The position numbers and the translations under genes are program-made. From positions 1 through 64,000 of the forward strand of contig JANQEE010000039.1 of the NCBI GenBank assembly GCA_028278525.1: a stretch of DNA of 64,000 bases. The letters run 5' to 3'. The stretch's first letter is position 1, and each line of letters opens with the position of its first letter. The notes beneath the pieces are model-generated. The model saw only the letters and a program-made list of their open reading frames with translations, did no database searches and was not told the origin of the DNA. This stretch comes from Minwuiaceae bacterium. GTDB taxonomy: Bacteria; Pseudomonadota; Alphaproteobacteria; Minwuiales; Minwuiaceae. Positions 56,377 through 59,241 of the stretch are shown one piece after another.

Positions 56377-56679
56377 ATGGTGACGCTGATCAAATCGTTG
56401 TGGGTGGGCGAGGTGCCGCTGGGGCAGGTTTTCTGGTGGTATGCCGTGGTGTGCGGCCTACTCATCAATCTGGTGACATCGATCCTGCTGCTGGCGCTGT
56501 TCGTGAACGATGCGCATATCACGCTGCTGATCGGATCGTTCTTGCTGCCAATACCGTACAACCTGCTGGTCGTCGCCGGGGTCTGGCGAAGCGCCAATCG
56601 CTACGACGGGCCGAAATCCCACGCTGACCTAGCCCGGATCGGCTGTGTGGTCTGGATGATTGCCCTGACCGCGGCTTGA
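56377..56679 (+). CDS. small membrane protein
   Basis: The protein has 100 aa with three hydrophobic stretches (FWWYAVVCGLLINLVTSILLLALF; ITLLIGSFLLPIPYNLLVVAG; ARIGCVVWMIALTAA). No family is recognised. It lies just after tRNA-Thr and overlaps the end of the convergent partner gene of module 3. Confidence 0.55.
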   Translation: MVTLIKSLWVGEVPLGQVFWWYAVVCGLLINLVTSILLLALFVNDAHITLLIGSFLLPIPYNLLVVAGVWRSANRYDGPKSHADLARIGCVVWMIALTAA

Positions 56680-56901
56680 CCCGGCGGCAACGCTACGCCC
56701 GCCGTCGGATCGACGAAAACGACAGAATTCGAGCAACACCTGACAGTGGTCTTCGTCGGCTGCGACCGTGTGCACGGCGGCCCGTCTATGTAGGCCGGAC
56801 TTCAGTATGCGGTCGTACATCGCGCAGGCTTCGCGCTCGTCCAGCGTAACGCTGCAGGGCCGGTCGTCCGTGGTGACGATGTAGACATGCATGACACTCA
56901 C
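56629..56901 (-). CDS. DUF1127-module partner protein, copy 3
   Basis: The protein has 90 aa and starts at GTG 56901, overlapping the DUF1127 stop (GTGA). VYIVTTDDRPCSVTLDEREACAMYDRIL aligns with the partners at 57422 and 58141. The C-terminal 30 residues are an extension absent from the other two copies. No family is recognised. Confidence 0.7.
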   Translation of the reverse strand: MSVMHVYIVTTDDRPCSVTLDEREACAMYDRILKSGLHRRAAVHTVAADEDHCQVLLEFCRFRRSDGGRSVAAGSSRGQGNHPDHTADPG

Positions 56902-57122
56902 CCAATCCAGAACGGCTTATGGCACTCGCGGCGAACATCCGCCCTGGTACAGCCGATGTCTTCCAGCAAGCGGTCATCGAACGATGCCAGTATGGCGCGT
57001 GAGTGCGCCCTTTCCCGCCATGTCGCCTGGATATCCAACGCTCTGCTGATCGCCCTGCCGAACAGAGACGGCCTAGAGGTCGGGTGTCCAATGCCGCTGG
57101 CGGTTGATTCATTCTGTGTCAT
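56898..57122 (-). CDS. DUF1127 small protein, module copy 3
   Basis: The protein has 74 aa. The C-terminal TWRERAHSRAILASFDDRLLEDIGCTRADVRRECHKPFW is the DUF1127/YjiS-like motif (key part DDRLLEDIG.TR.DV). GGGAAGGAG precedes the ATG and matches the other copies. DUF1127 proteins are linked to RNA or phosphate/carbon metabolism in alphaproteobacteria. Confidence 0.88.
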   Translation of the reverse strand: MTQNESTASGIGHPTSRPSLFGRAISRALDIQATWRERAHSRAILASFDDRLLEDIGCTRADVRRECHKPFWIG

Positions 57123-57421
57123 CTTGGTCTCCTTCCCGCCCGTTCTCTTGCTGGCCGATATCTTTCTTTCCAGGATTACATGGGCCTAGACAGTTGCTGC
57201 CAAATGGCGAAAACCTGGACTCTTTGTAATCTTTGTTTCGAAGCCTGGATGATTTAGTCCGCAACGCGCCAATTGACCGAGCACGGCGAAATTCCGTGAA
57301 GCGCCAAGTCGTAAGCGCAAGTACCCGCCGACTTGTCAGCGCAGCCGCGATGACTCATCGAAAGCAGATCGAGTTACAGGACGAAGCCGGCGGCGGCGCT
57401 ACGATGGCCGCCGGATCAGTA
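57123..57421. promoter_or_regulatory. conserved leader and gap upstream of module 3
   Basis: It contains the shared leader of the modules: a GGGAAGGAGACC box near the gene, and GGATTACATGGGC (57173-57185) 50-65 bp upstream of the ATG. It also lies downstream of module 2. No further gene is seen. Confidence 0.45.
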
Positions 57422-57595
57422 TTAGCTGTAGAATTCAAACAGAGCCTGCCACCGATCCTCGCTGGCCATAACGGCCAGCCGGTGCCGACCGGACCCAAAG
57501 ATGCGGTCGTACACCGAACAGGCATCGCGCTTGTCAAGCGCGATGCCACAAGGCCGGTCGTCCGTGGCGACGATGCAGGCCTGCATGGCGATCAC
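57422..57595 (-). CDS. DUF1127-module partner protein, copy 2
   Basis: The protein has 57 aa and starts at GTG 57595 overlapping the DUF1127 stop (GTGA). CIVATDDRPCGIALDKRDACSVYDRIFGSGRHR aligns with the other two partners. It is shorter than copy 1 by about 6 residues. Confidence 0.7.
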   Translation of the reverse strand: MIAMQACIVATDDRPCGIALDKRDACSVYDRIFGSGRHRLAVMASEDRWQALFEFYS

Positions 57596-57816
57596 ACCAT
57601 CCAGAACGGCTTCCGGCACTCCCGGTAGACGTCCGTCCGGTTCAGACCAATGTCCGCCAGCATGTGATCGTCGAGCGACGCCAGGCTCGCGCGCTGATGC
57701 GCCCGTTCCCGCCAAGTCGACAAAACGTCGAGAATCCCTGCCATTGCCGACACAAGCGCGGACGACCAGGCATTCGGGTACGCGACACCGATTGTCGGAT
57801 TTCTGCTCAGAATCAT
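57592..57816 (-). CDS. DUF1127 small protein, module copy 2
   Basis: The protein has 74 aa from ATG 57816 (AAAGGAGAG upstream). YPNAWSSALVSAMAGIL and TWRERAHQRASLASLDDHMLADIGLNRTDVYRECRKPFW are nearly the same as copy 1. Confidence 0.88.
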   Translation of the reverse strand: MILSRNPTIGVAYPNAWSSALVSAMAGILDVLSTWRERAHQRASLASLDDHMLADIGLNRTDVYRECRKPFWMV

Positions 57817-57863
57817 CTTTCTCTCCTTTACATTCGGCCCCTCTTCGGCCGACTTTCTGTCAC

Positions 57864-57880
57864 GGGTCACATAGGACCGG
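57864..57880. promoter_or_regulatory. conserved leader element of module 2
   Basis: GGGTCACATAGGACCGG lies about 50-65 bp before the copy 2 ATG. It matches GGGTTACATCGGAC (58603-58616) before copy 1. Confidence 0.45.
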
Positions 57881-58140
57881 CACGTTTTTGTCCGGAGATC
57901 GAAAATCTGATGTAATTGTGACTATTGGTTTAGAATCCGCAGGATCCGGTCCGCCCCCGGAACCTCTAACACCCAGGCAGCTTCGGCCAGCGGGAGAGGT
58001 ATTACCGGAATCGCGAACGGCTCTTGTTTCGCCTTCTCGTCGACACATGAACATGCTCAGGGGCGGCACGGCACGACAACTCGAATAGGGCTGCGGTTGG
58101 CAAAACCGGCAATGGCCGCAACGCTACGACGGTCGACAGA

Positions 58141-58332
58141 TCAATAGCCGCGGCAAAATTCAAGCAGAACCTGCCGCCGGTCCTCTTCGGCCGTAATGGC
58201 ACGCACGGCGGCCTGCCTATGCCGGCCGTATCTCAGGATACGGTCGTACATCGCGCAGGCCTCGCGCTCGTCCAGCGTAATGCCACAGGGCCGGTCGTCC
58301 TTGGTGACGATGTAGACCTGCACGGCGCTCAC
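58141..58332 (-). CDS. DUF1127-module partner protein, copy 1
   Basis: The protein has 63 aa and starts at GTG 58332 overlapping the DUF1127 stop (GTGA). VYIVTKDDRPCGITLDEREACAMYDRILRYGRHRQAAV is the best-preserved version of the motif. The C-terminus reads RRQVLLEFCRGY. No family is recognised. Confidence 0.7.
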   Translation of the reverse strand: MSAVQVYIVTKDDRPCGITLDEREACAMYDRILRYGRHRQAAVRAITAEEDRRQVLLEFCRGY

Positions 58333-58553
58333 ACAACCCAGAGAGGCTTACGGTACTCACGGTAGACATCCGCGCGGGTCAAACCGATGTCCTCCAGCAT
58401 GTGGTCGTCCAGCGACGCCAGGCTGGCGCGCTGGTCCGCCCTGTCCTGCCAGGACAAAAGCGTGTTGCAAACCCTCGTCGCCAGGCCGCCCAGCAAGGAC
58501 GACCACGCATTGGGGTAACCAACGCCAACTGAGATCGTTTCAGCCTGTATCAT
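58329..58553 (-). CDS. DUF1127 small protein, module copy 1
   Basis: The protein has 74 aa from ATG 58553 (GGGAAGGAG upstream). It is very similar to copy 2 (YPNAWSSLLGGLATRV; ASLASLDDHMLEDIGLTRADVYREYRKPLW). Confidence 0.88.
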   Translation of the reverse strand: MIQAETISVGVGYPNAWSSLLGGLATRVCNTLLSWQDRADQRASLASLDDHMLEDIGLTRADVYREYRKPLWVV

Positions 58554-58605
58554 CTTAGTCTCCTTCCCGCCCGGTCCCTCACCGGCCGGCATGCCTTGCC
58601 GAGGG

Positions 58606-59241
58606 TTACATCGGACGAGCCGGTTTCCATTTGATGTCCGGCCCGGAAAAATATTGTTTCAATTGTTTCAGCGATTCTATGACCGCCGCAGTGTCCAACG
58701 CCTTGGCGGACGGCGTGCCGTCTCGAGGTTCGAGCCGTATGATCAGAACCGCGACCGGGTCCTGCGTTGCTTTCTCGGCAACAGGCACGAAGACCGGCAG
58801 CGGCAGCACCGGATCGGCGATTAGAGCGTTGGTGTCGCTCTTCCACGCCAATTGGCCGACTACCGTAAAATGACTCCGGTCCTGTTCCCGCGTCAGGTGG
58901 GCCGCGCGCAGCAACGCCAACTCCACGGCTCTCTGTTTGCTGGTCTTCGGACTGCCGTAAACCACCACACCGAATTCGTTAGGACGCAAACGGCGAATAG
59001 CACGCATTCTCCGCGGTTGGGTTTCCAGGCCATCCGTATCCCCTAACAGTCCATACCGAGCCCAACGCAGCCAATTCAACACAGTCCCCCGTGACGTGAC
59101 CGTGATTGGCTTCGCATCGAAGCGATCCGGTTGAAAAAAAGTTTCGATTCTGTGACGACCATCGCAGTCGGGCGAACATGACCGTGAATTCGTCAAATCG
59201 CCCTTCGCCGTGGCTCGGCAAGCGCGTATTTTCATGCGCAT
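58606..59241 (-). CDS. CC0125-like protein
   Basis: The protein has up to 211 aa. FGVVVYGSPKTSKQRAVELALLRAAHLTREQDRSHFTVVGQ resembles the core of CC0125/CC1285-type proteins (xxLLRAAxxT...xFxVV). I see no lipobox, and the N-terminal 45 residues look poorly conserved. The first ATG (59241) has no ribosome site, so a later start is possible. Its last codons overlap the leader motif of module 1. Confidence 0.55.
   Translation of the reverse strand: MRMKIRACRATAKGDLTNSRSCSPDCDGRHRIETFFQPDRFDAKPITVTSRGTVLNWLRWARYGLLGDTDGLETQPRRMRAIRRLRPNEFGVVVYGSPKTSKQRAVELALLRAAHLTREQDRSHFTVVGQLAWKSDTNALIADPVLPLPVFVPVAEKATQDPVAVLIIRLEPRDGTPSAKALDTAAVIESLKQLKQYFSGPDIKWKPARPM

Follow-up and report, generated by a model that had tools for sequence, protein, structure and literature searches.

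DUF1127 is a very large bacterial family of small proteins, which are small chromosomal regulators. Their mode of action is disputed, with RNA binding set against protein binding. Members have been reported to bind the sensor kinases PhoR or SsrA, or RNA (PMC12501420, PMC11707872, PMC10253847). CcaF1 is reported to bind RNA (PMC10253847; discussed in PMC12501420), and other DUF1127 proteins act via sensor kinases. Arginine averages 14% across the family (PMC12501420). Two described loci are of particular relevance here. In Rhodobacter sphaeroides, the repeats of the CcaF1-CcsR1-4 locus are four small RNAs (PMC12501420), and in Sinorhizobium a DUF1127 gene is subject to uORF-dependent attenuation (PMC12218461, PMC12501420).

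The window, which is the whole 64,000-nt stretch analyzed here, carries three modules composed of a DUF1127 gene and a small partner gene. All three lie on the minus strand, with module 3 upstream-most in the direction of the genes. The initial annotation had proposed three tandem modules with a GTGA stop-start overlap, and the open reading frames, the PF06568 matches and the 300-nt repeats confirm this. The anatomy and copy number of the locus are established by the features below, given in gene order.

58606-59241, minus strand: upstream ORF, residues 84-137 weakly CC0125/CC1285-like (NF047637), ending in ATG TAA
58620-58668, minus strand: AT-rich, promoter-like island of module 3 (AAACAATTGAAACAATATTTTT), within the 3' end of the upstream ORF
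58554-58611, minus strand: leader of module 3, from the Met-stop end of the upstream ORF to the AAGGAG Shine-Dalgarno
58329-58553, minus strand: DUF1127 gene of module 3, 74 codons, PF06568 E 3.3e-12
58141-58332, minus strand: partner gene of module 3, 63 aa if started at the overlapping GTG, 60 aa if started at the following one
57857-58110, minus strand: spacer 2, in which the 3' part of the upstream gene persists as a decayed copy with internal stop codons; AT-rich island at about 57890-57931
57592-57816, minus strand: DUF1127 gene of module 2, 74 codons, PF06568 E 2.1e-12
57422-57595, minus strand: partner gene of module 2, 54 aa if started at the ATG at 57586, with an internal 4-codon deletion relative to the other copies
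57123-57330, minus strand: spacer and leader of module 1, with an AT-rich island, a Met-stop relic, a Shine-Dalgarno and a possible NFAVLGQLA remnant
56898-57122, minus strand: DUF1127 gene of module 1, 74 codons, PF06568 E 3.8e-9
56629-56901, minus strand: partner gene of module 1, homologous stop lost, the frame extending about 28 codons beyond it

The 300-nt repeat units are 61% and 76% identical and are spaced by 694 and 737 nt. All three DUF1127 products score above the PF06568 gathering cut-off of 23.3 bits (36.6, 47.0 and 46.4 bits). The genome carries 11 DUF1127 matches over this cut-off, and multiple copies per genome are likewise found in other alphaproteobacterial DUF1127 systems. 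The products have the same domain and size as the three short DUF1127 proteins of Agrobacterium tumefaciens, YjiS and CcaF1, and share the C-terminal KPFW-type end of many relatives. Their arginine contents are 14, 9 and 8%, so that two of the copies fall below the family average, and their pI values are 8.9, 8.0 and 5.1. In another alphaproteobacterial genome, a tandem DUF1127 pair lies about 270 nt apart (L177), and its second gene begins in an NTGA overlap.

An AAGGAG Shine-Dalgarno leader is common to the modules, as the initial annotation had noted for the ribosome site; GGAAGGAGACNAAGATGA has exactly two occurrences in the genome, both at this locus. In each of the three modules, the partner ORF has as its start codon a GTG that shares bases with the DUF1127 stop (GTGA), and an alternative in-frame start, ATG in two modules and GTG in the third, lies 9 nt downstream. 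This type of overlap is by itself unremarkable: in a sample of 130 alphaproteobacterial DUF1127 genes, 38 show an NTGA start/stop overlap, and 20 of those 38 have an open frame of at least 30 codons. Elsewhere in the sample, genes that appear PhzF-like by eye, with a DAFGAGLPFRGNPAAVVP-type start, lie directly downstream of DUF1127 (L138, L145, L152, L162, L167, L185), some of them with a start/stop overlap. At L179 and L189, genes resembling GFA/CENP-V family proteins are overlapped or abutted by DUF1127 genes.

The upstream ORF shows how the repeats may have arisen. It resembles the CC0125/CC1285 lipoprotein family at 28.5 bits, below the 40-bit NCBIfam cut-off for NF047637, and unlike those lipoproteins its start has no visible lipoprotein signal. 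Since the core is CC0125/CC1285-like and no signal peptide is evident, the ORF may itself be a decayed lipoprotein gene. Its 3' end accounts for the GGRTYACAT box that the initial annotation had listed as a shared upstream element. The box is present in all three modules, at 57173, 57864 and 58603, but read in the gene direction it is ATG-TAA/TGA, where the upstream gene ends in Met and stop, and each module retains this ATG-stop. The box is thus conserved because the upstream gene's 3' end was inherited in the duplication. Spacer 2 holds an in-frame remnant of the same gene, in which VDEKAKQEPFAIPVIPL aligns with VAEKATQDPVAVLIIRL and beyond which stop codons appear; 0 of 500 dinucleotide shuffles match its alignment score. 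The nine-residue candidate NFAVLGQLA in spacer 1 is not significant alone, with 156 of 500 shuffles reaching its score. From the spacer 2 remnant and the ATG-stop relics it follows that the duplicated unit took in the 3' part of the upstream gene. Duplication with decay of the upstream-gene copies, both small ORFs being kept open, is supported by this pattern. The ancestral stretch would have held the 3' end of the CC0125-like gene, the leader, the DUF1127 gene and the partner. Two duplications of it would then have left upstream-gene copies decaying in the spacers while the small ORFs remained open. The decay in the spacers gives a control, within the locus itself, against which constraint on the small ORFs can be judged.

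The partner has a core of 54-60 aa, and its DNA is conserved about as well as the C-terminal half of DUF1127 (0.70-0.81), while the N-terminal part of DUF1127 is much less so (0.45-0.53). Of the six frames, the partner's alone stays open in every copy, and its similarity sum of 547 is the highest, the runner-up reaching 447. Variable columns are enriched at third positions (27 of 57, P 0.019). Between copies, pS/pN is 0.57/0.21, 0.46/0.13 and 0.32/0.19 (bootstrap P 0.001, <0.001 and 0.094), the comparison of modules 2 and 3 not being significant by itself, and dN/dS is 0.2-0.5, indicating purifying substitution. Such substitution and the sole open frame argue that the partner is very probably translated, and it is probably a real gene. 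The two-ORF unit suggested by the initial annotation is real and locally amplified, with the partner under coding constraint (pS > pN, sole open frame). The same data bear on the idea that the partner is an open frame carried in the UTR, devoid of protein function and conserved through duplication alone. No search returned a homologue, the stop codon is lost in module 1, and the module 2/3 excess of pS over pN is not significant, all of which agree with this idea. However, the synonymous excess is significant in two of three comparisons, the third-position excess and the sole open frame point to coding, and spacer 2 lost its frame over the same time, so we regard a functionless frame as unlikely. 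In module 1, CGA stands where module 3 has the TGA stop, adding about 28 residues (56629-56715); given this loss and the deletion in module 2, not every partner copy need be functional. An AlphaFold model of the partner from the three rows has a beta-beta-alpha-beta-beta order at a mean pLDDT of 54, and a Foldseek search with it returned nothing at E<=0.001. The ubiquitin-like and protein G/L matches from Foldseek were not meaningful. The predicted fold is too weak to build on; perhaps the partner is a small soluble protein of this topology.

The partner belongs to no named family, as the initial annotation had supposed, with no significant match in Pfam, NCBIfam, PADLOC or PDB sequences. Its best PHROGs match is phrog_16066, of unknown function, at E 0.02 and for one copy only. 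A profile scan of its own genome found exactly three copies, all at this locus, and the other DUF1127 genes there have no partner. As context, a murA scan puts this genome no more precisely than near Rhodospirillales-like Alphaproteobacteria. The same profile found none in 8 genomes of the family and no credible one in 385 alphaproteobacterial genomes of the class or 398 genomes of the phylum; a second draw of class genomes overlapped largely with the 385-genome set. Weak class matches at L098, L099 and L107 were judged to be chance, with no DUF1127 gene at any of these loci, and the L098 match lies in a different frame from a long ORF that resembles a PLP-dependent Cys/Met-metabolism enzyme. 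Scanning 360 nt around and after the stop codons of the 130 DUF1127 genes gave no match. Peptide patterns found none in GTDB or in viral contigs (IMG/VR), tblastn found none on plasmids or phages, and the searches returned no second genome of the same genus. The expectation that the partner family would sit beside DUF1127 genes elsewhere was thus not borne out in the 8 family, 385 class and 398 phylum genomes or at the 130 DUF1127 genes, and at the present search depth the partner is not conserved outside the locus, one of the two outcomes that the initial annotation had named as refuting its proposal. Within the limits of these searches, the partner forms an orphan family; small orphan genes are common.

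Two further explanations are touched by these searches. Two small overlapping genes in several copies could form a small toxin-antitoxin or defense module. Neither gene has a PADLOC match, Pfam and PADLOC find no known toxin or defense domain in the pair, the partner is without a Pfam or NCBIfam match, no phage, viral or plasmid copies were found, and DUF1127 is a chromosomal regulator family, making such a module most improbable. The partner could also be a translated, lineage-specific orphan that shares transcription and translational coupling with DUF1127 and has no physical action on it. The lack of any relative near the 130 other DUF1127 genes fits this, as do the partnerless DUF1127 genes of the same genome and the many unrelated genes, several with an NTGA overlap, that DUF1127 precedes elsewhere. 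Against it, the pair was kept through two duplications while the upstream-gene copies decayed. We consider an orphan of this kind possible, if doubtful.

Upstream of each DUF1127 start, at about 100-130 nt and in the same place in all three modules, is an AT-rich island, with 62-70% AT measured over 40 nt; of all 40-nt stretches in the window, about 1% reach 62.5% AT. All three islands contain AAACNA(N5-6)ACAA, with a constant distance of 109-110 nt between the motif and the end of GGAG; this motif was derived from the same three copies, so that the independent evidence is the AT-richness and the position. No sigma-70 consensus was found. The islands are promoter-like, and each module probably has its own promoter. 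GC-rich hairpins after modules 1 and 2 (CGGCGG...CCGCCG) were set aside, being absent from module 3 and without a T run. The leaders might instead act as a conserved RNA element or attenuator, as in the Sinorhizobium uORF or the CcaF1-CcsR sRNA locus. DUF1127 genes under such control are known (PMC12218461, PMC12501420), and the leader is conserved between modules at about the level of coding sequence. Yet the leaders fold no better than shuffles (z = +0.7, -1.3 and -1.4), and neither do the 3' regions; the hairpin of modules 2 and 3 is absent from module 1; Rfam gave no RNA family match; the CCTCCTCCC motif is absent from the window; and the GGRTYACAT box comes from the Met and stop codons that end a coding gene. 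An RNA-linked role for the leaders, as raised in the initial annotation, finds no support in these folds and scans, and we hold an RNA element to be very unlikely.

The preferred reading, which we put at an even chance, is a lineage-restricted, triplicated DUF1127 operon in which the partner would bind or modulate its DUF1127 protein, the most likely role for it given co-translation and co-retention through two duplications. Each copy would be driven by its own promoter in the AT-rich island, and DUF1127 would be translated from the strong Shine-Dalgarno site. Ribosomes terminating at the GTGA overlap would reinitiate there on the partner, which would keep the two proteins in a coupled ratio. 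The DUF1127 protein itself may be a small adaptor that acts on RNA or a sensor kinase, and the partner may serve as the dedicated binding partner or modulator of its cognate. The stronger proposal, that the partners form a new small-protein family tuning DUF1127 in three diverged, insulated regulator-modulator pairs, the first dedicated DUF1127 partner, is rather unlikely, though a co-translated partner in three diverged pairs, if truly dedicated, would give a direct handle on DUF1127 action. If the partner does not bind, the locus still offers a clear example of a small orphan gene whose frame survived duplication as its neighbor decayed.

Like CcaF1-CcsR1-4 of R. sphaeroides, the locus has a DUF1127 gene that shares its operon with an element repeated locally. 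The repeats here are protein-coding cassettes with no RNA fold signal, and neither the CcsR-type CCUCCUCCC motif nor an sRNA family match was found by the window motif scan and Rfam. Unlike known DUF1127 genes, those described here are overlapped by a downstream small ORF of no known family, a feature absent from the 130 sampled genes. The locus is a new arrangement around a known and common family, with an orphan companion.
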